Shown here piece by piece: positions 40,755-59,388 of a DNA stretch of 64,000 nucleotides (positions are counted from its first letter, which is position 1; every line of letters starts with the position of its first letter). The stretch is taken from positions 1 through 64,000 of IMG/VR virus record IMGVR_UViG_3300008459_000024; one strand, written 5' to 3'. A program made the position numbers and the translations under genes. The notes under the pieces were generated by a model. That model searched no databases. It was not told the DNA's origin and saw only the letters and a program-made list of their open reading frames with translations. The DNA is from a virus.

Positions 40755-43700
40755 TTATATACCGTTAGCGCTAGCCAAATTAAAATAAGTTTTCACGTTA
40801 GTTTCTAATTGTGTAACACTATCCGGATTATTTGTTTTGTAAGTATCGTAATAATTTGTAGTTGTTCCCGTATCATTAATCAATTGTTTAACAAACTGTG
40901 TCGCAAATTCATTAATATCTGTAAAATTAGTTACTGAATTAAGATATACCGGAACAAACTTACTATTAATAAAAGTCAAAGATTTTTCAGGTGTTTCAAA
41001 AACCGCATATGTATTAGTACTACCATTCTCATCATCCAAACAAATAAACTCCTCATTAAAGAATGATGATAAAGTTCCACCCCATATTCCCCCATCAAGT
41101 CTTGCTAATATTAAATTGTTATTCCAAGTTTTTATTTTAGTAGAAGCCGCATCATAACTAAACGATAATATAAGAGTTAGTAAAATTTTTCTTGAGTTTA
41201 CATCAGTTGTTAATCCATTAATCTTACTAACAATATCCGAAATAGTGAAATTAGTTTCAACTGGATTTGTAGATGCGTAAGTACTGTAGGGTTGAGCAGG
41301 TTCACAAATTTGTGAGGATGCGGGTTTTCTTTTTTGAATTAATGACTTAGTTGTATTCGTTTGTTGTTGGTTAATATTAGTGGTAGTATTTGTCGCAGTT
41401 GCGGCTCTAGAAACTTTATTAGAATAATTATTTCTAGCGTCAGTTATTAACTGTCGTTTAAGTGACATTAATATTGGATTGACATACGGTAATGTTGTTA
41501 CTTTTTGTCTTTGTCCCGTGAAATCGGTACTGAACTCACCAGGCGCAATTGTGTGAACAACTTCTGTAATATAATAAGAACCAGCAAACATAGGAACATT
41601 TCGTAACACAAAATAGTTTGTTGGTTGAATCATCATATTACCTAGACACCGTATTCTCGCCTTGTATTGTCGAGTTTTAAATACATTATATAAACTAACA
41701 GACTGTGTGTTTGTTCTCGACCCTGACTGACTTGTTGCCAATCTAAAATTAGCATCCAAAGATTCACTTGTTGCCTCCCCATTATCTTGTGATACATTAA
41801 TTGACGTAAAAACATTTTGATTTTGTAATCCAAAGTCAACCGCAAATCCAACAGTCTTATTAGATAACGCCCAATCAGTTTTACCAAATTGATTCTCAAT
41901 TATAGGATTTGCGCTAGTTTTTGATAAATCAAAACTATCCGAATTATACCCATTATTAATATTTTTATTATTCAATTGTTCGGAAGGCTTTTGTTGGTAA
42001 ACACAAACCATTTTTGGTTTGGTTTCTTGGAAATCGACATTATCAAATACCCCAAATAATTTATCGGCAAACAACTCTTCAGGGTCCTCATTATTTTGAT
42101 TATCCCCCTGCGGAGTTATTGAGTTATAATAATTAATATAGATAGGGTTATAAGAAATAATAAAACCATTCTCTCTAATTATATTCTCAATAATTTCGTA
42201 AGTTTGAGTTTTTTGACTTGAGTTTTTTAAAGTTTTAGTAAGTTCTGTCACATTAACAATTATTTGGTCGGATATGTTTCTATTGGCTCTATCCAACAAC
42301 AACACGTCTTCCAATAATGTTTGTGAACTATAGTTATTTCCCGCAACCCATTTATCATTTAAAGATTTAAATAAATCATAAAGTTCAACTTTAGTTAAAT
42401 AAGATTTTAATGGAGAATCACTTAAATCGTTCTCAGTTTTAACTGTTTGTGGTAATTTACCAGTTAATGTTTGGAATGTCTGAGTGAATAAGTTATTTTG
42501 GAAATCCTCAATATCCGCAAAATAACTATCTAATAAAGTAACAAAAGAATCTTTAGTTAATGTTGGGTCAAGTAATTTTTGACTCGCAAATACTTTAATT
42601 AGTGAGGAATAATATTCGATATTATTAATTGTAAATCCGATATTCATCACAGGGAAAAAGTCAGTAATATATGACCCAGTATCTGAGTACACTAATTCAT
42701 TTATCGTTGAGAACCCTACATGTGTTTTAAGTGTTTTCCACTCTTCAGGGTAGTTCGCTAACGATACTGATAATGTGATTGTATTTGCCGTAGTAGGTAC
42801 TGCGTTTGGCGTTCCACTATTGTAATCCACCTCAACTTGTGAGTAATTTAATGGATTAGAAGATAAAGAACTAAATGATTGAGGGTTAAAATTATTAGGA
42901 TTACCCTTAACCATGATAAAGTTTTCTGAAAGCAATCCTGCCATAGTTGACACAAAATTATTTATTTGGTCGTTCTGAATTTTGATAACTACATCATCAT
43001 CATTATTACCAAGTACTTTGTAGTCGTATTGGAATAAATCAATCATGTTTTGGTGTAAGGTAAAATTGTTTGTAACCTCGAATCTTGTCTTAGAGTAATT
43101 TAAAAATTCCTGTTCAATAATATCAAGTTCATCTTTTTGGAAAACTGAGAATAATTCTTCAATTTTTGAATACGTTGAGTCACTTACCAAATCAAAAGAT
43201 GACTGTAAAGTTGAGTTAGTATTAATTACTTTGAAGTACTCGTCGGGGGCGGGTAATGATATAGTTGAAGTGTTAAAATATCCATAGTTTGGTGCCCCCC
43301 ATAACAATCTCGCTGAACCGTTATACATAGAAGAATTACCCATTATAGGATTAACTAAACCTGTCACTGAAAAACATTCTTTTTCTGTCTGATTCACAGT
43401 TCCTCCAAACGAAGGTACCGTAACATATTTATTAGTTGCAATGTTTTTAATTAATATACTCCAGGCATTTAGGAATAACGATGATGTTGCTGTGTAATTA
43501 ACTCTATTAATTTTAGAAGAATTAGGTAACAATATTATAATTTCACCACTTTGTATTCTATTATTAATAGCGTCCTGTATTGTTTGTACGGTAAGACCCG
43601 CATCTGATGGGTTATATATATTAACACCATTTACCAAATAAAAGAAATCATTAATTAATTTTGGATAAAATCCAATATTCACATAATCAATATCACCAAC

Positions 43701-46700
43701 ATCCGAACCTATTGTGGATTCTAACTTTATATTAACCGTATTTGAATTATATAAAATATTATACTGTGTTCCGTATAAACCATTTATTGGGTCGTATGCG
43801 TTTAATTTATCAAAATCAGTTAAAGAATTACTTAAAATGTCAGTTCCAGTTTCAATATACTTCTTATATCTATACCACACACTTCCAAGTTTCGCAACCC
43901 ATAATTTTGGAACGGAATGAACCCCTCCAAACTTTTTAATAGTTGCCGCAATATAATCTAAATCATTACCAATGGATTCGTTAGAACTTTTATATTTTTC
44001 TTTTAACGTAGCCAAAGGCAAACTATTCAAAAAGAAGTAAGAACTTGTAACAAATGGATTCTCAGTTGTTTGTCTAACACTTTCAATATCCTGTATTAAT
44101 GCATTAATAAAATAAGGGGTGTTTAATATGGAGGTTGTTTGAGTATCACTCAATAAACTTGTATTTGTAGAATACAATAAATTACCCTCAGTGAAAACTT
44201 GAGTATCTGTTCTATCAATATAAAAACTATTAATATTAACAGGGATAACAATAGTGTTTGTTAATACTTCGAAATTTGTATATGGTCTATTAAAGTTGTT
44301 ATCACCTGTCTTACCTGTAGTTTTTGGAGTTGTATAATTCGCAAACTTCTTAATGTTTGAGTTATAAATTAACGAATCTGAAGTTTTGTTAAAACTAACA
44401 AATTCGAATCCATCCACACTTGATGCTAAATTATTTTGGTTCCATGTATTAGAAATAAATGGATAAGTGTCGGTGAAATAAACAGGGTTTGTAGCACTTT
44501 GCCCTAAATATGATTCAATCACCCCTTCACTTTCTAAAGTAACTTTAACTTCAGGTAAGTCAGTATCTAAAATCTTAAAGTTATTATCAATTTCACTTTT
44601 TAAATATTCAGTATTAAGAATACCATTTTGAAGTTTAATCCATTTATCAGTAGTCCCATTTAAAGTAATGCTCTTCAAATAGTTTTTAAATTCTATTGGA
44701 CTAAATTTGAAGTTTTTTAATAATTCAACTAAATCATAACTCTGTTTAGATATCCCATTTACAATATTCTCAGATTCCGCATCGGGTAAATATTTTAATA
44801 TCACATCTGATATTAATCGAGTAAAACCTTGGTACTGAGAAATTGTAAGTATACGTTCATAAATCTCAAAAAGGAAATTGACAGTTTCTAAGTTAGAGTA
44901 AGGATTATTCGTTGACGGTGTGTCAAATCCCGATATTATATTTCTATTTACTGCGGTTAAATTTATGGTTTGATTATTCGCAGGGGGGTCTAAATCTCTT
45001 TTCAAGTATCCTTTAACAAATTCTTCAACAAATTCAACTTCAGGCCAAATAGTAAAATCATTAGCCCTTGTAACTGAAATATAATCAGAATCACCAGGAT
45101 ACGCATTCTCATAAACAGTATTATTGTTAACCTTTTTTTCTACAACAAACTGAGGCCAAGGATAAACTGGTGAATCCGGCAAATTTTCAATTATGTCAGA
45201 TAATTCAGGACTACCACCTGACGAGACGGCATTTCTTCTAAAAGTACTATCTCGGTTATCAAAAGCTTTGGTGTGTACGTCATCTAAAAGTAATAAAAAA
45301 GCCTCGGCTGAAGCTAAAATGACAGCAATTACATTTTTAACAGTAGGTTTAAATCCAAGTCCACTACTTGATTCTAAAATTCTATCTAATTCTTCAGATA
45401 AGTTGTTTTCAATTTCGTTTTCACTAGCCTTTAAATCTTGTCTAATTTTTTCACTTAAATTTGCATAATACCCATCCCCATCAAGTCGATAAAATGGTGA
45501 AACCTCAACATCCAATAAGCTATTAGCATTTGCAAATATTAACTCTAACTCAGTCCCAAATAAATCAATTTGTTCCTGAGTCGGAGGGGTCCCATTTCTT
45601 TTAGTTAATGTTTTTAAAATATCAACTTGTGAGATACTTAAAGTCGGCATTATTAAAGACGATAATGTTATAGGAACTTTAATCTCTTTACTTCCTCCCT
45701 CACCAAAAGTTGGATTGTTGTTCAAAATTTGATTATTTCTACTAATAGTTTCCTCAAGAACACTTAACGCCGTTACAGAATTTGTTAATTGTTCGGGTTT
45801 AAATGTATAAATTTCATAATCCACATCATTCTCAGTAATTATGAATGGATTTTTAAGGTCCATATATGTTGAGAACCAAGAATTACTTTTAGTGAATATT
45901 TCTCCGTTATAGTTTATTATTGAACTTCTATAATTCTCAAAGTCTGTAAATGAATTAAATGATAATTTACCATATTCTCCCAAAGTAATATTAACAAAAT
46001 TATCAAGTTTATTTATTAATTGGGGAACCGTAAGTTCGGGAAAACTTTCAGGAATCAATCCCTTTTTTTTGTAATTAGAATAAACTAATTTAATTTTTTC
46101 ATATCCCCTGTATGTGGTTATTTCAGATACAGACTTATTGTTACCTCCTATTTGAGTAGTTTGGTCAACTTGTTGGTTATTAGAGAACTTTTTAGTGTAC
46201 ATTTGAGGAACCGCAAATAAATCCGCATATTGCACATCTTTTAAAACACTAAACTGTTCAGTTCTAAATGTTAATTCTATTTCAAAATTACCAGAATTAG
46301 CATTCATCGAGGTGTAAAAATTGTTTAAGTATAATCGAGTTTTTGTCGCTTTACCATAATATCCTTTAAGTGTTAAATAAAAAACAGGCCATGGATAATT
46401 AAAAAATACAGAATACGCCGAGTCGTCCCCACCTTCAAAAAGTGACCTACCTCTGATATCCTCTAATGTTACTTGTACTTCAGGTACGAAACTTAATCCA
46501 ACATTAAACACGATTCTTGTAATACCAAGTAATTCTTTATTTATCGTATTCTGATTTGGTATACCTTCTTGTAGGTCGGTCCAATTTGTTGTTAATTCTT
46601 GGTTTCCATTTGGATTAAGGAAGTTGACCGTACCAGCAGCGACTTGGATTAATTGCCCTGAATTACCTTCGGTTCCTCTTACAAGCCTACTTCTAGGAAC

Positions 46701-46850
46701 TAAGTCACATTCTAAATTAACATACATTACCAAGTCTTCTTGGTTAATTGTTCTTGGTTCGGGTAAATTTTGGTCATTATAAACCCTATTAGGGTCTACA
46801 ACAAATATATTATCAAAATTACTCTCTACATATATGTTTTTACTTGCCAT
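40755..46850 (-). CDS. Very large baseplate hub-type protein (about 2031 aa)
   Basis: I start at MASKNIYVESNFDNIF (46850), seven codons inside a longer frame, because this limits overlap with the gp53-like gene to 11 nt. N-terminal residues about 145-210 (FFNYPWPVFYLTLKGYYG, FEIELTFRTEQF) look like a tube/hub-type beta-domain. Residues about 1720-1780 (RCLGNMMIQPTNYFVLRNV, then FAGSYYITEVVHTIAPGEFST) match the pattern of gpD/gp27-like hub proteins (p-x-x-y-f-x-l-r ... F-x-G-x-Y-x-I-x-x-V-x-H-x-I-x-x-G-x-F-x-T). T4 gp27 is about 391 aa, so this protein is about five times longer, and the middle 1500 residues are unexplained. Hub role is inferred. Confidence 0.65.
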   Translation of the reverse strand: MASKNIYVESNFDNIFVVDPNRVYNDQNLPEPRTINQEDLVMYVNLECDLVPRSRLVRGTEGNSGQLIQVAAGTVNFLNPNGNQELTTNWTDLQEGIPNQNTINKELLGITRIVFNVGLSFVPEVQVTLEDIRGRSLFEGGDDSAYSVFFNYPWPVFYLTLKGYYGKATKTRLYLNNFYTSMNANSGNFEIELTFRTEQFSVLKDVQYADLFAVPQMYTKKFSNNQQVDQTTQIGGNNKSVSEITTYRGYEKIKLVYSNYKKKGLIPESFPELTVPQLINKLDNFVNITLGEYGKLSFNSFTDFENYRSSIINYNGEIFTKSNSWFSTYMDLKNPFIITENDVDYEIYTFKPEQLTNSVTALSVLEETISRNNQILNNNPTFGEGGSKEIKVPITLSSLIMPTLSISQVDILKTLTKRNGTPPTQEQIDLFGTELELIFANANSLLDVEVSPFYRLDGDGYYANLSEKIRQDLKASENEIENNLSEELDRILESSSGLGFKPTVKNVIAVILASAEAFLLLLDDVHTKAFDNRDSTFRRNAVSSGGSPELSDIIENLPDSPVYPWPQFVVEKKVNNNTVYENAYPGDSDYISVTRANDFTIWPEVEFVEEFVKGYLKRDLDPPANNQTINLTAVNRNIISGFDTPSTNNPYSNLETVNFLFEIYERILTISQYQGFTRLISDVILKYLPDAESENIVNGISKQSYDLVELLKNFKFSPIEFKNYLKSITLNGTTDKWIKLQNGILNTEYLKSEIDNNFKILDTDLPEVKVTLESEGVIESYLGQSATNPVYFTDTYPFISNTWNQNNLASSVDGFEFVSFNKTSDSLIYNSNIKKFANYTTPKTTGKTGDNNFNRPYTNFEVLTNTIVIPVNINSFYIDRTDTQVFTEGNLLYSTNTSLLSDTQTTSILNTPYFINALIQDIESVRQTTENPFVTSSYFFLNSLPLATLKEKYKSSNESIGNDLDYIAATIKKFGGVHSVPKLWVAKLGSVWYRYKKYIETGTDILSNSLTDFDKLNAYDPINGLYGTQYNILYNSNTVNIKLESTIGSDVGDIDYVNIGFYPKLINDFFYLVNGVNIYNPSDAGLTVQTIQDAINNRIQSGEIIILLPNSSKINRVNYTATSSLFLNAWSILIKNIATNKYVTVPSFGGTVNQTEKECFSVTGLVNPIMGNSSMYNGSARLLWGAPNYGYFNTSTISLPAPDEYFKVINTNSTLQSSFDLVSDSTYSKIEELFSVFQKDELDIIEQEFLNYSKTRFEVTNNFTLHQNMIDLFQYDYKVLGNNDDDVVIKIQNDQINNFVSTMAGLLSENFIMVKGNPNNFNPQSFSSLSSNPLNYSQVEVDYNSGTPNAVPTTANTITLSVSLANYPEEWKTLKTHVGFSTINELVYSDTGSYITDFFPVMNIGFTINNIEYYSSLIKVFASQKLLDPTLTKDSFVTLLDSYFADIEDFQNNLFTQTFQTLTGKLPQTVKTENDLSDSPLKSYLTKVELYDLFKSLNDKWVAGNNYSSQTLLEDVLLLDRANRNISDQIIVNVTELTKTLKNSSQKTQTYEIIENIIRENGFIISYNPIYINYYNSITPQGDNQNNEDPEELFADKLFGVFDNVDFQETKPKMVCVYQQKPSEQLNNKNINNGYNSDSFDLSKTSANPIIENQFGKTDWALSNKTVGFAVDFGLQNQNVFTSINVSQDNGEATSESLDANFRLATSQSGSRTNTQSVSLYNVFKTRQYKARIRCLGNMMIQPTNYFVLRNVPMFAGSYYITEVVHTIAPGEFSTDFTGQRQKVTTLPYVNPILMSLKRQLITDARNNYSNKVSRAATATNTTTNINQQQTNTTKSLIQKRKPASSQICEPAQPYSTYASTNPVETNFTISDIVSKINGLTTDVNSRKILLTLILSFSYDAASTKIKTWNNNLILARLDGGIWGGTLSSFFNEEFICLDDENGSTNTYAVFETPEKSLTFINSKFVPVYLNSVTNFTDINEFATQFVKQLINDTGTTTNYYDTYKTNNPDSVTQLETNVKTYFNLASANGI

Positions 46851-47163
46851 AATAATAAAAATATTGGTCAATTGCCGACTTATAATCTAACAAAGACGGT
46901 GTTAAAGGAAACGGTATAGTCAATATGGTATTATCAGTAATGTTTAATTCAGAACCTCCTTGTATCCCATTTGCTTGTAATATTAACCATCCAAAAAAAG
47001 GAGTTCCGTAATATAGTTGGGATATCTTATCTAATCTTGATGTGTTGATTTTATATACGTGAGTTTTGTCTGTAGATTTTGAAGGTAACTTAACATACGG
47101 TACCACAGTTTGCATACCATTAGAAACTAAGTTTTGATATCGATTATAATATAAATCAGCCAT
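46840..47163 (-). CDS. 53: Baseplate wedge protein gp53-like (LysM-like)
   Basis: 107 aa. RLDKISQLYYGTPFFGWLILQANGI followed by NTILTIPFPL (quoted in part: DKISQLYYGTPFFGWLIL) matches the LysM-like pattern in gp53/gpX-type baseplate proteins: d-x-Ia-x-x-yYG-x-p-x-yW-x-I-x-x-aN-g, then a P-x-x-l strand. Such proteins help attach wedges to the hub or tube. T4 gp53 is longer (about 196 aa), so only the core is retained. It starts 1 nt inside the stop of the 1544-aa gene. Confidence 0.75.
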   Translation of the reverse strand: MADLYYNRYQNLVSNGMQTVVPYVKLPSKSTDKTHVYKINTSRLDKISQLYYGTPFFGWLILQANGIQGGSELNITDNTILTIPFPLTPSLLDYKSAIDQYFYYYGK

Positions 47164-51835: not shown

Positions 51836-53722
51836 TTATGCAGTTCGTGTCTCAGACGCCTTTTCAATCGCGAGTGATAATTTCTGTGCGTTTCCCGGTT
51901 TAGTTAACGCCGCCGCCATATCATCAACTTGTTTTTGGGTAAAGGTTCCGTCAGTCTTAAATATTAACTCCACTTTTCCGTTAACGTTTGTGTTATTTGT
52001 ATTTTGAGATGCTGGTTCAGTTGTAATTCCAGGAATATTTATTTCAGGTAATGATAATTGTGGGATTAAACTAGTTTCACCACCAAGGTTTAAACTTTTA
52101 GTAAAATTTTCCAAAGCGGCTTTAGCTGCATCTATTTGAGTTTGGAATCCTGAAAAATCAACACCAGTAAATCCTTGTAAACTTGTTGTTAGATTAGATA
52201 AAGCTCCTGTTAAGGCCCCTAATCCAGCAGAACCGGCAAACGACGCCAACGAAGTTGTTGCCTCCTTTAATTGTCCAAGAGCACCACTTATGTCAGCACT
52301 AGCTAAACTAGTAACAACACCTTGTAAATTATTATTGAATCCTGTTAAAAAAGTTTTAAAATCAGCATTACTCAAACTAAAATTATCAACGAACGCCTTT
52401 GAAGTTGATTGGTAAACAGTTAATGCCGATTTTAATATGTCCACCCCACCAAATTCAGCAAGGGCAAGACCAATAGCATTTTTATTTGCCATCTCAGTTT
52501 CTTTCTGTTGAGCCTCAATAGATTTTGTACTTTTATACCCCCCTTTAACGAATTCATCCGCACTTTGATTAATTTGATTGCTGGCCGTAATATACTCTTC
52601 TAATTCTATTTTTTGTCTATCGGTTAATTTATCCAACTCTTTTGTTATAGTTTCACCATCAGATGTTGTAAATGTAACTTGATACGAAAGTCCACCTTCT
52701 TTATTAGGTAATAACTCCATCATACCTTCTAACTGCTGTAATTGACTTTGACTATAATCAAGATTTAATTCACTAAGTTGTTTAGTTCTTGACTGCATTT
52801 TAAGTAACTCACCTCCAGAACGTACTAAGTCTTGGTATGCAATTCCTGTCTGTTTTGATATCGCCTGTAAATCGTCAACAGAACTTGCAGGTACCTTAAA
52901 TTGTTGTGTTTCCTCATCAAACTCTAAGAATGTTGACGCCATGTCGGCAATTGCGGTTTGTAAATCATCAACCCTATTACGAGCAATATCTTGTAATGCA
53001 AAAGCATCTGTTAACTCAGCATTAACCACTCCCATTCTTTGGAAAAATGCCGCAGTTTCTAATGCCTTTTCAGGTGAGAATAAATCAGTTGCAAGACTAA
53101 AGGTTTCACTCATATCCAATTTCAACCTTCTCGATTGGATAGACATTTTGGTTAATCCTTCAATTCCATTATTAAATCCAAATTCATTTAATTTTGATAA
53201 ATTAGGAATAACATCGTCAGCAACTTGCGATAACGGTACTGAAAAATTCATAGCCTGTACCGCCATTACTTTGGTGTACTCACTAACGGAAGATATTTCT
53301 TTACCGATAGATGCAAAATTAGATATTAATTCTTTAGATGATACCCCAAGAACTTTAGAGTTTGCCAACAAATCAACCATTGATTTTTGTGAAATCACGG
53401 TTCGTCTACCAAACTCATCCATGTACTCTGACATATACTGAGTCGCCAAAGTAACTCCGTTGGCACCTTCTCCCATCACATTTAATTCCGTTGCCGCTTG
53501 TGCCAAATACCCTTGTAATGATTCGGCAAATTTATCAGAAGCACCGAGGGTTCTTTGGAAGTCTTTGGCGAAACTTTCAATCTGTGCGGCAGGGGTCAGT
53601 ATGTTCTTAATTTCAGAACCTGCATCTAAAAATGGCTGAGTAACATTCGCCATTTTTCCAACAGTCCCAATATCGAATGAAGACGCACTACCCGAATTAT
53701 CACCTGGTTTGAGTTGTAACAT
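51836..53722 (-). CDS. Tail tape measure protein
   Basis: 628 aa, mostly helical and Ala/Ser/Gln/Leu-rich, with long helices (EIKNILTPAAQIESFAKDF, SLQGYLAQAATELNVM) and hydrophobic Ala/Gly-rich segments near residues 470-520 (FAGSAGLGALTGALSNLT), typical of tape measure proteins. T4 gp29 is 590 aa, so a tail of similar length is expected. Its place directly after the tail-assembly-chaperone gene and tube gene is the classic one. A TATTTATA motif is 4 nt before the ATG. Confidence 0.78.
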   Translation of the reverse strand: MLQLKPGDNSGSASSFDIGTVGKMANVTQPFLDAGSEIKNILTPAAQIESFAKDFQRTLGASDKFAESLQGYLAQAATELNVMGEGANGVTLATQYMSEYMDEFGRRTVISQKSMVDLLANSKVLGVSSKELISNFASIGKEISSVSEYTKVMAVQAMNFSVPLSQVADDVIPNLSKLNEFGFNNGIEGLTKMSIQSRRLKLDMSETFSLATDLFSPEKALETAAFFQRMGVVNAELTDAFALQDIARNRVDDLQTAIADMASTFLEFDEETQQFKVPASSVDDLQAISKQTGIAYQDLVRSGGELLKMQSRTKQLSELNLDYSQSQLQQLEGMMELLPNKEGGLSYQVTFTTSDGETITKELDKLTDRQKIELEEYITASNQINQSADEFVKGGYKSTKSIEAQQKETEMANKNAIGLALAEFGGVDILKSALTVYQSTSKAFVDNFSLSNADFKTFLTGFNNNLQGVVTSLASADISGALGQLKEATTSLASFAGSAGLGALTGALSNLTTSLQGFTGVDFSGFQTQIDAAKAALENFTKSLNLGGETSLIPQLSLPEINIPGITTEPASQNTNNTNVNGKVELIFKTDGTFTQKQVDDMAAALTKPGNAQKLSLAIEKASETRTA

Positions 53723-53742: not shown

Positions 53743-53895
53743 TTAGTTTTCCGTCGCAGAACCAATTAGTCTATTGACAAGATAATTTCTCATATAGATA
53801 GGCATTAACATAAAATCAGAATAAGATGTGTGTAGTCTTGAACCTAATATCATATATTGGTCCAATAAATTACTTAAATAATCAGAAGAAAGGAC
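53743..53895 (-). CDS. Frameshift extension of tail assembly chaperone (50 codons)
   Basis: A frame offset +1 from the chaperone gene is open across its stop and continues for 50 codons to TAA at 53745-53743. It encodes VLSSDYLSNLLDQY, then MILGSRLHTSYSDFMLMPIY and a basic end (RNYLVNRLIGSATEN). It fills nearly all of the space up to the tape-measure start. If joined at the TTT TTT CGT site, the product is 295 aa (+1) or 296 aa (-2). Alternatively the internal ATG at 53853 could start a separate 36-aa protein. The layout matches the G/GT chaperone arrangement of other tailed phages. Confidence 0.62.
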   Translation of the reverse strand, partial: VLSSDYLSNLLDQYMILGSRLHTSYSDFMLMPIYMRNYLVNRLIGSATEN

Positions 53896-54631
53896 GAAAA
53901 AACTCCGCCCCAAAGGATATTCTTGCCAATACCTTTTTTCCTGACGGGGCTAAAACTTCTCTGTTTAAATCTAATTTAGGTTCATTCTCCATTATGAAGT
54001 TTGAAATAAACTTAGAATCCATGATTGGCATTTTACTTACAAAATCTTGAATGTCAGATATTTCTTTTGACCCGTCAATCTCAACAATTTGTTTTAATAA
54101 TTTATTAGTGACTGTAGGAGCGTATGATGAACCAACATAACCCTTACCATATTTGTTTAGTTCGTTTAACTCACCAAATGTCAATACTTTTAATTTAACA
54201 GACTTACCTGATTTTGGTAACACGACATTAAATAATCCGTTACTATCAGGTTCAACTGAAGGTTTTCTAAACTCAATTTCATCCAAACTAATTTCTCTTT
54301 GGAATTGTTTTCCCGTTTCAGGGTCAATTAATGTAAACTTATATTCACTACCAAATGATGTATTTCTTAGAAAAACTAAAATCGCCTCAATATCACCCTC
54401 CAACATATCTTCAGGTCTTAAATCGGGTTCATACATTTTTCCCCTAACTAAATTAATAATTAATTGTTGTCCGTCCATATTAGCCGCAGATGCCAACATG
54501 TTTTCGTCAACCGCAGTTAAGTAACCAACTTTAACACTTTTTTTATTAGTTTTGTAAAATTTACCTTCGCTAGGTAATTTTACAATATCATGAGGTAAGT
54601 TTAAATGTTCTTGAGCAATTTTGTTGTCCAT
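53882..54631 (-). CDS. 26: Tail assembly chaperone / gp26-like baseplate hub assembly protein
   Basis: 249 aa. DIVKLPSEGKFYKTNKKSVKV near the start, DLRPEDMLEGDIEAILVFLR near residue 75 and SFGSEYKFTLIDPETGKQF near residue 95 match the pattern of the T4 gp26-type baseplate family: LPS-G-x-x-Y, ...GD...iL...lR..sfG. These proteins are believed to be chaperones for the tape measure. It lies between tube (54726-55211) and tape measure (51836-53722), exactly where chaperone genes lie in other phages. Its last codons contain a slippery TTT TTT CGT (53902-53894), and an extension frame follows. Confidence 0.78.
   Translation of the reverse strand: MDNKIAQEHLNLPHDIVKLPSEGKFYKTNKKSVKVGYLTAVDENMLASAANMDGQQLIINLVRGKMYEPDLRPEDMLEGDIEAILVFLRNTSFGSEYKFTLIDPETGKQFQREISLDEIEFRKPSVEPDSNGLFNVVLPKSGKSVKLKVLTFGELNELNKYGKGYVGSSYAPTVTNKLLKQIVEIDGSKEISDIQDFVSKMPIMDSKFISNFIMENEPKLDLNREVLAPSGKKVLARISFGAEFFRPFF
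53894..53902 (-). promoter_or_regulatory. Candidate frameshift site TTT TTT CGT
   Basis: In the zero frame the codons are GAG TTT TTT CGT CCT. Moving +1 from TTT to TTC keeps tRNA-Phe paired; UUU CGU is also the core of the influenza PA-X +1 site. A -2 slip in the T6 run gives the same new frame. Confidence 0.55.
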
Positions 54632-54725: not shown

Positions 54726-55211
54726 TTAGTATACTAAGACACAATAGTCAGGTCTAAGAGTTGCTTTGATGTCGGCTAATTTATCATCATCATAAGATAA
54801 TGAACCAAAATCAACGTTAGTTAAGAATGTACCAATTAATAACCATTTTTCGATTACAACACCGGTTGGGTCTAACATGTCCAATTCAAGGTCTCTCTTG
54901 TATCCTGCGGCATATCCCATACGTCCTGTTACAGACTCAGCATGTAAACGAACCCATTCCATCAAGGCTTGAGCTGCTGAAGGTCCAATCGGGTCTCTAA
55001 ACGTAACGTCTATGGATTCCCAGTTATATCTTCCAGCTACGTATCTTGACGTATTTAAAAATGGAATTTCAGTTTCAGCAATTTTAATGTTTGGTCTAGA
55101 AGTTGATTCAACAAACCATTCATTAATACCTAAGTTATCAAACTTTAAAATGAACCTGTTTTTTCTTTTTGGCTCATACGGTATCGGCATTTTCATTAGT
55201 AAATCAGCCAT
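54726..55211 (-). CDS. 19: Tail tube protein gp19-like
   Basis: 161 aa (T4 gp19 is 163 aa). FILKFDNLGINEWFVESTSRP, quoted in part as NEWFVESTSRPNIKIAETEI, and GRYNWESIDVTFRDPIGPSA followed by LMEWVRLHAESVTGRMGYA are typical of the T4-type tube: a W-x-a-x-S-x-P-x-i strand and the D-x-x-x-P-s-x-x-x-l-m-x-W helix. It stacks in hexameric rings to form the inner tube. It has its own terminator and a TATTTATA motif 31 nt upstream, leaving a real 5' leader, as also seen for the sheath. Confidence 0.9.
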   Translation of the reverse strand: MADLLMKMPIPYEPKRKNRFILKFDNLGINEWFVESTSRPNIKIAETEIPFLNTSRYVAGRYNWESIDVTFRDPIGPSAAQALMEWVRLHAESVTGRMGYAAGYKRDLELDMLDPTGVVIEKWLLIGTFLTNVDFGSLSYDDDKLADIKATLRPDYCVLVY

Positions 55212-55319: not shown

Positions 55320-56135
55320 TTAATAATCTTTCTTAACTCCTCCATGTGTTGAAATTGTTTTAATTATATTGTCTGGGTCTTTTTCTAATTCTTTCTTAAC
55401 TTTTTCTAAATTTCTTAAATCATCATCTGAGAATCCTATTTGTGGTATAAATCGGTTAGATATGTCGTTCTTGAACATACCTGGTTTTTGTAAGGTCTTG
55501 GAAATATATTTAACATAATTTTGGAACTCCCTAAGAGCGTTAACTTTACCTACTTCGGGATTCTGTGCTGAACCTTCACCAAATGTTACAGGATAATACT
55601 TATTCATGTCCATGTAAGCATCAATCAATTCATCATTTGACATATCTTCTTCACCTGCAATATCTCTAAACTTCCTTAAATTTTTCACCAACTCTTTCTT
55701 AGAAATTCCTTTAAAGTTGGTTTCAATCATGTTTTCAATTGCTCGTCTAATAACCAATGGAGAATGTCCTCGAGCAGTTACTATAGAGAAGATTGAACCC
55801 CCATTAATCGCTTCAACAAAGTCATCCCATGCAGGACCTGGTTTTGCCAACATTGAATCAACTATAAACCTCTTATCCCCCTTGGTTGAGAAGTTTCTAA
55901 ATGGGTCTTCAGCAAATCCAACAATTGTTTTACCTTTATATTCAAAAGGTTCTTTACCGACATGAATTCTATGTTCGGCAAAATCTTCGGTACCCATAGG
56001 AACTTCATTACCGTTATCATCTTTTAATATGATTTGTGTTGGCATGTACATAATATTATCGTCCCAATCAAATGCATAATACTTTAACTCAGGTGTAATC
56101 TCTTCTTTAAAATTCTCAACAAGATAAACTTTCAT
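55320..56135 (-). CDS. HAD-superfamily phosphatase-like protein inside the tail cluster
   Basis: 271 aa. Motif I is FDWDDN (D23 and D25), motif II is the T in SIVTARGHSP near residue 120, and motif IV is GFSDDD near residue 232. Helical segments between may form a cap domain. HAD phosphatases act on nucleotides, sugars, or DNA/RNA ends (T4 PseT has such a domain). Here the gene lies between sheath and tube genes and has its own TATTTATG motif. Its role in a tail operon is unclear: it could be a virion enzyme or an independent late cargo gene. Confidence 0.78.
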   Translation of the reverse strand: MKVYLVENFKEEITPELKYYAFDWDDNIMYMPTQIILKDDNGNEVPMGTEDFAEHRIHVGKEPFEYKGKTIVGFAEDPFRNFSTKGDKRFIVDSMLAKPGPAWDDFVEAINGGSIFSIVTARGHSPLVIRRAIENMIETNFKGISKKELVKNLRKFRDIAGEEDMSNDELIDAYMDMNKYYPVTFGEGSAQNPEVGKVNALREFQNYVKYISKTLQKPGMFKNDISNRFIPQIGFSDDDLRNLEKVKKELEKDPDNIIKTISTHGGVKKDY

Positions 56136-56205: not shown

Positions 56206-59200
56206 TTAAATGTTTTCAAAAGACGCTCCTGTTGGAGTGATTAAGAACTCAATGTCGATGAATTCTAACGCTTTAGTTGGTTTGATGTAAATCTTACCTA
56301 CTAATTGGTTTCTATCCAAATCCTCAGGTGTGTTAGAAACAGTTACTCTAAAGTCATATAAACCTCTATCTCTACGAATAGCATCTAAGATTGGGTTAAC
56401 TGAATCTAAGAATTGTTGTCTAACGATATTATCGTTTTGTTCAAACAATAATCTTACCGCCACCGCTGAAATCAACTTACGAGCTTGTAACAACAAACGT
56501 CTTACGTTGATTCTATCAAGAGCTGATTCCGCAACTTGTAAAGTTTTGTTACCCCAAATTACAGTTCCAACGTCGTTAAATGTTGCAATTGGGTTAATTC
56601 TACCTTTATACAACGTATCTCTATCTTCTTGAGTTAATCTTCTTCTCGCTCTGATTGCGTTTACAACACCTCTTGTGTAACCTGCAGTTGCGAACCAAGG
56701 GAATGCGATGTTATCAGTTAACGCTAAGTTTCTTGTAACTTCAGCAGTTGCTGGAAGATAAATTTGTGTGTTATTAACCGTATCACGAGTCAATACCCAT
56801 GGATAGTAAGTTGCTGTGTAGTTTGAATCTATACCTGAAGTTTCCAACTCGTCAACAATTTCTTGTGGGTAAATTAAATTATCCATTGAAGTTGTCGGTT
56901 GTAATAAATCAAAGTCAGGTGATGTCATGATGTAGATAGAGTCAGCTCTATCGTTTTCTACCATGTCGATTGCCGACTCACAAAGGTTAGAGTTGTTAAC
57001 AAAGTCAACACCAGGTGTAACGAACACATTAATATTAGTTACCTCAGGATTATTGAACGATTGAATACCTAACAAGTATGCGTAATAGTCAGTATTTGCA
57101 TAATCTGTAGTATTATCTTCTACCGTAATTGGTTTGAATAATCCCCATCCTGTTGAGTCGGGGTAACGTGTACAACCTGCTAATTGACCAGCTTTGTAAC
57201 CACTTTGTCCTAAAACAAATGTATCACCATTAGTTCTATATTCTCTATAGATATCCCATCCGTCAAATCCGCCTTGTACTAAGAAAGTGAACTTTCTTGA
57301 GAATATTTTGTAATATGGATTATCAGAATTACTTGGGTCAGATTGGAATGATGCGTCACCAACCTGGAAGGCTGATTGTCCTGATGTTACATATGAGTTG
57401 GCAATTGTTACAACAGTTGCTCCACTATCCATGTGGAAACCTTTAGTTAACTTACTCCAATCACTGTATGAACCTTCAACACACCAACTTCCTGTATAGT
57501 TTTGTTTTCCTTTATACGCGAAGAAGTCAGGGTCAAATCCAATACTGTCAGAGATACCTAAGTAAGTTCTACGAATATTGTCACCAGGACTAATTACTGC
57601 ATCGTCTCCAGCAGTTGAACCGAATGGAGGGTTAAATATTTCTTCACCTGGGATATCGTAGTGAGTTTTATAGATTGGGAATGGAGAATCTTTACCTGAA
57701 TAAGTACGAGTAACGTATCCTTCAAAACCACAAGGTAATGAGTCAATTGGAGCGTCAGCATTTAATTCCAACATAATGAATTTAGAATTTACTGCGAACT
57801 CACCATCATTACTACCTACTTTTTTACCGACATAACTATTAAGACTTGGGTCCATAGTACAGTTAGTAAATTTCTCTAAAACAACAGGGTTGGCATCTGT
57901 ATCAAAGTAATCTCTTACGATTAAATCAAATGTTCCATTGTTGAATGACATGTTAGCCACAGATACTTTAACTTCGTAGTTTGCGCTATTACCATCAGAA
58001 ATTGTGTGAACTCTAAATAATTGATAAACTAAATTACCTCTTAATTCAGAAACAACCCATGGTGATTTTGGAGTTTGGTATCTCTCTAAGTAAAAACCTA
58101 TAGATGTAGTATTTTGGTTTCTTGCTTCAGGTAAGTAAGTTAATGACGTATTCAATCCTCTAATATACCCTTTATTATATCCGTAAGTTAACAAGTTTTG
58201 ATATCTTTCTTCAACAAACAAAGGAACTTCAGTTCTATCTTTTTCAAAGTTTTGTGTTCCGAATACCTTACTAATGTAATTTGTACTAGCCTGAGTAAAT
58301 GATGTTTCAAAACTAAATGTTTGACTATCAATATCAGTACCTGAAATTACAAAAGTTGCAAATGGATTTTGAGTAATTGCGGAATATGAACCTGAAGATA
58401 CTAAACTAGCGGTGTCACCGGTTAATTGATATTGGTCCCCAAGATTTGCACTACTGAATGTTGAAATACCTCTTGAACGTAATGTGGCGATTACTAATCC
58501 GTTATAATCTGTGTGTGCAGTAGCGGTGTAAGATAGAACTGAACCTTCGGTTGCTCCTGTGAAAGAACCGCCTCCTATTGATTGTAAATACTTAAATTCT
58601 AAATAGAATGAATATCCACTATAACCATCTCCTGAAGTAACATCAAAATTAGCATAATACCATGCATCATTTAATCTATCACAAAAATCTATTGTGTTTG
58701 CACTGATACTTGTTACCGAGTATTTGTTTGTTACTCCGGTAATTGTTGGTAAATTCCCTAATTGTGTATTACTTAAAGGTCCGTATACTAAAGATGTTGT
58801 TGCAGATAGTGAGTTAGTTAAAACCGCAGAAGTGATAAAAGAATTAATATCTGAACGATAAGATGATGTGGTACCATCAAATTTAGTATAAACTCTATCA
58901 AAATCTGAATATACTGTAGTTCCTGTAAAATCAACTGAGTCGGGTCCCGATGTTGAGTAGGTCACAGTTCCCGCGGTTGTCGCGGTGAAATATATGATAA
59001 CTCCCGGAATTACACTACTAACTGCCACAGTTTCACAGTTAACATTACCCACAGTACTAATTGACCAAGAAGGTCCCGCATCATAACCTGATAATCCAAG
59101 TACACGAGTTACGAAAAGTTGATTTGATTGTTGTAAATATGATTTTGCAATGTATGCGGCCTCATATTTAGGAATTTGTGTATTAACAAATTTTTCAGGA

Positions 59201-59388
59201 GTTGTTCCACCGAAATAAGTAGAAAACTCGTCATAGCTGGTAACAAAAATAGGTTCAAAGGCAGGACCTTTTAAAGTCTCACCAACAATACCTAAAGTTG
59301 TAACACCAACACTTTGAGAAACAAATGATAAGTCCCTTTCTGACGTGTAAACACCAGGAGAAACAAATATTTTACTGTTTGATGCCAT
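56206..59388 (-). CDS. 18: Tail sheath protein gp18-like, with large insertion
   Basis: 1060 aa against 659 in T4. The N-terminus (FVSPGVYTSERDLSFVSQSV, then GIVGETLKGPAFEPIFV) is the standard sheath start: sPGVy-x-x-E-x-D-x-s, then G-x-x-kGP-x-x-p. The C-terminal 200 residues (from about AEVTRNLALTDNIAFPWFA through ARRRLTQEDRDTLYKGRINP and FEQNDNIVRQQFLDSVN) are the conserved sheath core that forms the contractile lattice. The middle 600 or so residues are beta-rich and probably protrude from the tail surface. It has a terminator after the stop and a TATTTATC motif 31 nt upstream, so it is likely strongly expressed. Confidence 0.9.
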   Translation of the reverse strand: MASNSKIFVSPGVYTSERDLSFVSQSVGVTTLGIVGETLKGPAFEPIFVTSYDEFSTYFGGTTPEKFVNTQIPKYEAAYIAKSYLQQSNQLFVTRVLGLSGYDAGPSWSISTVGNVNCETVAVSSVIPGVIIYFTATTAGTVTYSTSGPDSVDFTGTTVYSDFDRVYTKFDGTTSSYRSDINSFITSAVLTNSLSATTSLVYGPLSNTQLGNLPTITGVTNKYSVTSISANTIDFCDRLNDAWYYANFDVTSGDGYSGYSFYLEFKYLQSIGGGSFTGATEGSVLSYTATAHTDYNGLVIATLRSRGISTFSSANLGDQYQLTGDTASLVSSGSYSAITQNPFATFVISGTDIDSQTFSFETSFTQASTNYISKVFGTQNFEKDRTEVPLFVEERYQNLLTYGYNKGYIRGLNTSLTYLPEARNQNTTSIGFYLERYQTPKSPWVVSELRGNLVYQLFRVHTISDGNSANYEVKVSVANMSFNNGTFDLIVRDYFDTDANPVVLEKFTNCTMDPSLNSYVGKKVGSNDGEFAVNSKFIMLELNADAPIDSLPCGFEGYVTRTYSGKDSPFPIYKTHYDIPGEEIFNPPFGSTAGDDAVISPGDNIRRTYLGISDSIGFDPDFFAYKGKQNYTGSWCVEGSYSDWSKLTKGFHMDSGATVVTIANSYVTSGQSAFQVGDASFQSDPSNSDNPYYKIFSRKFTFLVQGGFDGWDIYREYRTNGDTFVLGQSGYKAGQLAGCTRYPDSTGWGLFKPITVEDNTTDYANTDYYAYLLGIQSFNNPEVTNINVFVTPGVDFVNNSNLCESAIDMVENDRADSIYIMTSPDFDLLQPTTSMDNLIYPQEIVDELETSGIDSNYTATYYPWVLTRDTVNNTQIYLPATAEVTRNLALTDNIAFPWFATAGYTRGVVNAIRARRRLTQEDRDTLYKGRINPIATFNDVGTVIWGNKTLQVAESALDRINVRRLLLQARKLISAVAVRLLFEQNDNIVRQQFLDSVNPILDAIRRDRGLYDFRVTVSNTPEDLDRNQLVGKIYIKPTKALEFIDIEFLITPTGASFENI

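Follow-up and report, generated by a model that had tools for sequence, protein, structure and literature searches.

A probable +1 ribosomal frameshift by which one gene would encode two tail assembly chaperones in an uncultured virus and its relatives

Results

The 64,000 nucleotides of DNA analysed here (hereafter the window) come from an uncultured virus whose record comprises 78,304 bases. As read from the sequence, a gp26-like open reading frame (ORF) on its minus strand runs from an ATG at 54631 to a TGA at 53884-53882 and would give a product of 249 residues in frame 0, here called TAC-N. The 5' neighbour on the same strand (54726-55211) matches the tail tube family PHROG_4542 (E 1e-30) and is the expected partner of the C-terminal extension described below. 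The 3' neighbour (51836-53722, minus strand) is a putative tape measure gene, the expected client of the chaperone, and is placed by its position; it had no curated tape-measure match, and its PHROG hits were all weak (minor tail protein, E 0.009). The location between tube and tape measure proposed in the initial annotation is therefore borne out, by a profile match on one side and by position on the other. No tRNA genes were found within the window. Elsewhere in the tail region, the sheath gene (56206-59388) encodes 1060 residues, far more than is usual, and the sheath-domain matches begin at about residue 770, which leaves a large N-terminal or inserted part. A 271-residue gene between sheath and tube (55320-56135) is devoid of Pfam matches and carries in its N-terminal part the motif FDWDDNI, reminiscent of HAD-type phosphatases, and an ORF of 2038 residues at 40755-46871 likewise lacks a Pfam match.

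The assignment of the gene at 54631-53882 to the gp26 family of tail assembly chaperones stands up, as judged from profile comparisons. TAC-N matches PF12322 (E 1.5e-11, 44.8 bits, above the curated cut-off of 24.5) and PHROG_150 (E 1.2e-16), a membership common to gp26 and gp51 of T4. Its AlphaFold model, made separately from that of the extension, has a pLDDT of 88.8 and resembles predicted baseplate-hub or gp26-like viral proteins; among PDB structures, the HK97 chaperone 2ob9 ranked fifth, as a weak match (E 0.93, TM 0.48).

The 3' end of the gene reads GGG GCG GAG TTT TTT CGT CCT TTC TTC TGA. The +1 frame is open through the gp26-like stop as far as a TAA at 53745-53743. If the tRNA on the second TTT (53899-53897) of the hexamer at 53902-53897 moved forward to TTC (53898-53896), 50 codons would be added (53895-53746, VLSSDYLSNLLDQYMILGSRLHTSYSDFMLMPIYMRNYLVNRLIGSATEN; TAC-C), and the product, TAC-NC, would comprise 245 + 50 = 295 residues. 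The A-site codon is CGT (53896-53894), a rare Arg codon, and the frame-0 stop follows the first base of the slip codon by 15 nt. The coordinates, the added length and the codons at the crossing given by the initial annotation all hold on the minus strand. A -2 slip at this site enters the same frame as a +1 slip, while the -1 frame closes two codons past the gp26-like stop. Taken alone, these features prove little: when the bases of the region are shuffled, an open frame of 46 codons arises in 1.6% of cases, and TTTTTTCG is unremarkable, occurring four times against 5.9 expected in this AT-rich window. The case consequently rests on conservation in relatives.

In two scans of IMG/VR we recovered 104 relatives. 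Together with the window they form a family of 105 sequences, and 75 distinct versions of the stretch compared occur among them (a second tally counted 74 distinct loci); a genome collection was also searched, and no relatives were found in it. The alignment of homologues advocated in the initial annotation showed both the TTT-CGN site and the downstream frame to be conserved across this family. The +1 frame continues beyond the frame-0 stop in 74/74 distinct loci, and that stop lies at +15 in 68 and at +21 in three of 71 distinct relatives. Past the stop, pN/pS is 0.12-0.13 in the +1 frame, and the two remaining frames give 1.1 and 2.7-2.8. Ahead of the slip site, a coding signature is absent from the +1 frame (0.79), and frame 0 stands at 0.46. 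Low pN/pS thus moves from frame 0 to the +1 frame, which indicates a switch of coding frame at the proposed slip site and supports the earlier claim of a chaperone extended by frameshifting.

The site itself, TTTGGGG-NN-GAR-TTTTTT-CGN-CCT-TTC-TTC, is kept almost unchanged across the 75 distinct sequences. The slip codon is TTT in all of them, against 69% expected, and the codon before it is TTT in 74 and TTC in one (L208). The A-site codon is CGN in 75/75 (third base G in 29, C in 26, T in 19 and A in one), whereas the other Arg codons of these genes are CGN in 15% and AGA or AGG in 85%. CGC and CGG together account for 55 of the 75 A-site codons and occur elsewhere just twice each among 644 Arg codons. 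The overlapping +1 codon (G-N-C) accounts for part of this bias, which also places a rare codon in the A site, one that we infer from its rarity to be slow to decode. The Gly codon that lies 12 nt upstream reads GGG in 74/75, compared with 10% of other Gly codons. Binomial values for these codon biases are extreme, but they should not be read as probabilities, since the sequences are related. The family accordingly combines a conserved overlapping +1 ORF without its own start with a P-site codon able to re-pair cognately at +1, UUU-Y in all its loci, followed by a presumably slow codon, as is looked for in programmed +1 frameshifting. One member, L267, has a +1-frame TAG immediately 5' of GAG TTT TTT CGG, with no later start codon, so that the extension can be reached there only by a shift between that TAG and the frame-0 stop.

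At TTT-C or TTT-T sites, 147 of 151 distinct distant loci likewise show the +1 relation, and so do the cultured phages immuto, Mel-JY01, RM378, SP-15, LIS04, GXN1 and LuckySocke. The contexts are TTT CGN, TTT TGG, TTT CTT, TTT CTA, TTT TAC and TTT CAG, their common feature being TTT followed by C or T. Across the 147 loci, the closest upstream stop in the +1 frame ends at -2, and frame 0 is closed at +12 in the tightest case. Four loci depart from this relation. XacN1 (L030) and L293 show a -1 relation, at T TTT TTT and T TTT TTC respectively; in L284 and L288 the slip TTT has been lost (TTC TTG and TTC CTT). In these two (L284:1968-2708 and L288:1971-2708, each with its downstream ORF), the C-terminal domain is a separate ATG-started gene just past the chaperone stop. 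In immuto, Mel-JY01, LuckySocke and SP-15, short ORFs annotated as "hypothetical protein" follow the gp26 gene (L028:3360-3470, L027:3240-3476, L029:2303-2458, L295:2312-2431); they are likely misannotated pieces of the +1 C-terminal domain, and the annotation of these phages can be corrected in that sense.

The TAC-C model consists of three helices (pLDDT 86.6) and matched no PDB structure. By hhalign, the TAC-C profile aligns with the cyanophage gp51 domain (E 2.3e-5, probability 76%), and the latter with the C-terminus of T4 gp51 (E 4e-5, probability 70%); direct comparison of the window-family profiles with single T4 sequences was not significant. The link to T4 is therefore bridged via cyanophages, and the sequence comparisons suggest a modest homology between TAC-C and the gp51 C-terminus, at 70-76% probability per step.

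Discussion

From the open frame, its conservation as coding sequence, the conserved slip site and the homology with gp51, we infer that ribosomes shift at this site. We propose, with considerable confidence, that a single gene gives rise to two tail assembly chaperones, the longer one by a +1 shift at GAG TTT TTT CGT. Most ribosomes would terminate at 53882 and release TAC-N, while a minority would stall on the second TTT with the rare CGT in the A site, where Phe-tRNA on UUU could re-pair perfectly at +1 with UUU or UUC. By analogy with the lambda proteins gpG and gpGT, TAC-N may coat the tape measure protein, and TAC-NC may recruit tail tube subunits via its C-terminal domain.

It is possible that the upstream TTTGGGG (53914-53908, 9-15 nt 5' of the slip codon), or its GGGG, acts as a Shine-Dalgarno-like stimulator of the shift. 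However, GGGG is absent from many distant loci, and its 8-nt spacing is not what a +1 or a -1 stimulator usually has. TTTGGGG is nearly invariant in the window family, for no dual-coding reason. No conserved RNA structure was detected downstream with RNAalifold on 40 relatives: in the weak helix obtained (-4.45 kcal/mol over 150 columns), the pairs surround the slip site, are invariant and show no covariation; none lie downstream, where the energy z-score is about -1.

The initial annotation gave +1 as the likely direction of the shift and -2 as an alternative, and of these the relatives favour +1. A -2 shift within the T6 run would yield the same frame with one extra Phe; such shifts are known for Mu, and TTT TTT in the window and most relatives would allow Phe-tRNA to re-pair two bases back. 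Nevertheless, TT is absent before the slip codon in 48 of the 147 distant loci, and there, as in L208 (TTC TTT CGC), the wrong bases make -2 re-pairing impossible, yet the frame is the same. The sequences in which the slip-codon tRNA cannot re-pair at -2 comprise 12 TTC TTT TGG loci, the TTT CTT and TTT CTA loci, GXN1 (TTC TTT CGT) and LuckySocke (CTG TTT CAG), besides L208. We accordingly favour +1 over -2 for the family and, by analogy with its relatives, for the window, whose own T6 allows both; a -2 shift appears improbable. The runs bear equally on slippage of RNA polymerase, which would give mixed transcripts. There are six T in the window and seven in 96 distant loci, but six is short for transcript slippage, and the run falls to three in 36 distant loci and L208 and to four in 12, so that this explanation can be considered highly unlikely. 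A slip at CCT was also considered and rejected, GCT standing there in some loci.

Independent initiation of the downstream frame has some points in its favour. A +1-frame TTG lies 14 nt 5' of the slip codon in 65 of 72 window-family sequences, short separate ORFs have been called by annotators in several phages, and L284 and L288 do carry an ATG-started gene. The TTG, however, is replaced by TCG where the sequence reads TTC GGG, and in L267 the TAG separates it from the extension; ATG or GTG is missing before the conserved domain in 55/72. Moreover, 49 of the 147 distant +1 loci offer no ATG, GTG or TTG for the second frame, and in these separate initiation cannot explain the extension. A downstream gene with its own start, which the initial annotation had named as evidence against frameshifting, was found just in L284 and L288, precisely those without the slip codon. 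We regard a separate gene as very unlikely in the window. An assembly error or a broken gene might be suspected of a homopolymer in one uncultured contig, but the arrangement recurs in 74 distinct contigs and many cultured phages and the extension is under purifying selection, which makes this the least probable explanation of all. The +1 shift remains our preferred reading.

A heptamer of the form X XXY YYZ, on which a -1 shift would depend, is missing from the window group: the hexamer is preceded by G or A, and the -1 frame soon closes. The cyanophage gp26-gp51 genes, in contrast, use the -1 frame at T TTT TTC in 60/60 distinct loci, and in several jumbo phages, too, a -1 frame at T TTT TTY leads into the same domain. 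Within this -1 class, T precedes TTTTTY in 66/66 (60 cyanophage-like loci together with Atu_ph07, PA5oct, RAS14, XacN1, LR756511 and L293). Among 167 distinct loci of the +1 class with TTTTTT, none has T in that position, even though about 57% of the codons for Thr, Ser, Gly, Asn and Asp in these genes end in T. The pattern fits a simple pairing argument, in which both tRNAs can move one base back on T TTT TTY, while any other preceding base would block this and leave the forward slip. We lean towards the broader hypothesis that one base sets the direction of the shift in this chaperone family (U before UUUUUY giving -1, another base +1), that lineages have switched among -1, +1 and separate genes while keeping both proteins, and that +1 lineages avoid U at this position, although the association of base and direction is a correlation across related sequences. 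More than 220 distinct sequences form a natural series of likely +1 phage sites, and the matched -1 series in the same gene family makes the rule testable by a one-base change.

At the level of known systems, the two proteins proposed here have counterparts in T4, whose chaperones belong to the same PF12322/PHROG_150 family as TAC-N and whose gp51 C-terminus matches TAC-C via cyanophage gp51. It follows from this homology that T4 has the short (gp26) and long (gp51) forms as two genes, whereas the window would produce both from one gene by a +1 shift. The cyanophages (S-PM2 and relatives) share with the window the two domains, their order and a shift near the gp26 stop, but their shift is -1 at T TTT TTC and that of the window group +1. 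In S-PM2 (L302, 5472-6364), and also in L303-L382, gp26 and gp51 are joined by this -1 shift; gp51 of S-PM2 is annotated as a separate gene.

Vladimirov, Gautam and Davidson reportedly described frameshifting in T4-like tail assembly chaperones in 2022, and their work may already cover part of the +1 group. It is cited in connection with -1 poly-T sites by PMC12846349. Lambda also makes a short and a long chaperone, gpG and gpGT, from one gene 5' of the tape measure (PMC5009743); its shift is -1, at a heptamer, and the likeness to the window chaperone is one of arrangement. Most described tail-chaperone sites are -1, as the initial annotation stated, in agreement with the literature and with the cyanophage relatives. 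In the HF1 group of haloviruses, a +1 shift was proposed in 2020 at a TTT-CGC close to the 3' end of a chaperone gene, which is flanked by those for tail tube and tape measure (PMC7230728), and for HSTV-2 a +1 shift in the tail chaperone was deemed very likely (PMC5009743). HF2 (L384, 528-1311) has a chaperone with TTT CGC and a +1 frame. This chaperone is of another family (PHROG_14268/12163, no PF12322 match), and the TTT-CGN motif therefore looks convergent. The parallel drawn earlier with the influenza A PA-X site, UCC UUU CGU (as given in the passage of PMC7230728 that cites its source), agrees in the UUU CGU core and in direction; with a eukaryotic ribosome and an unrelated gene, it is an analogy only. 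Since frameshifting in T4-like chaperones and a +1 shift at TTT-CGC in haloviruses, neither of which figures in the initial annotation, had already been proposed, the case of the window is not of a new kind. Within the literature covered, three things appear to be new: that the T4-like family includes a large +1 class, that this class follows a UUU-Y rule, and that one base sets it apart from the -1 class.
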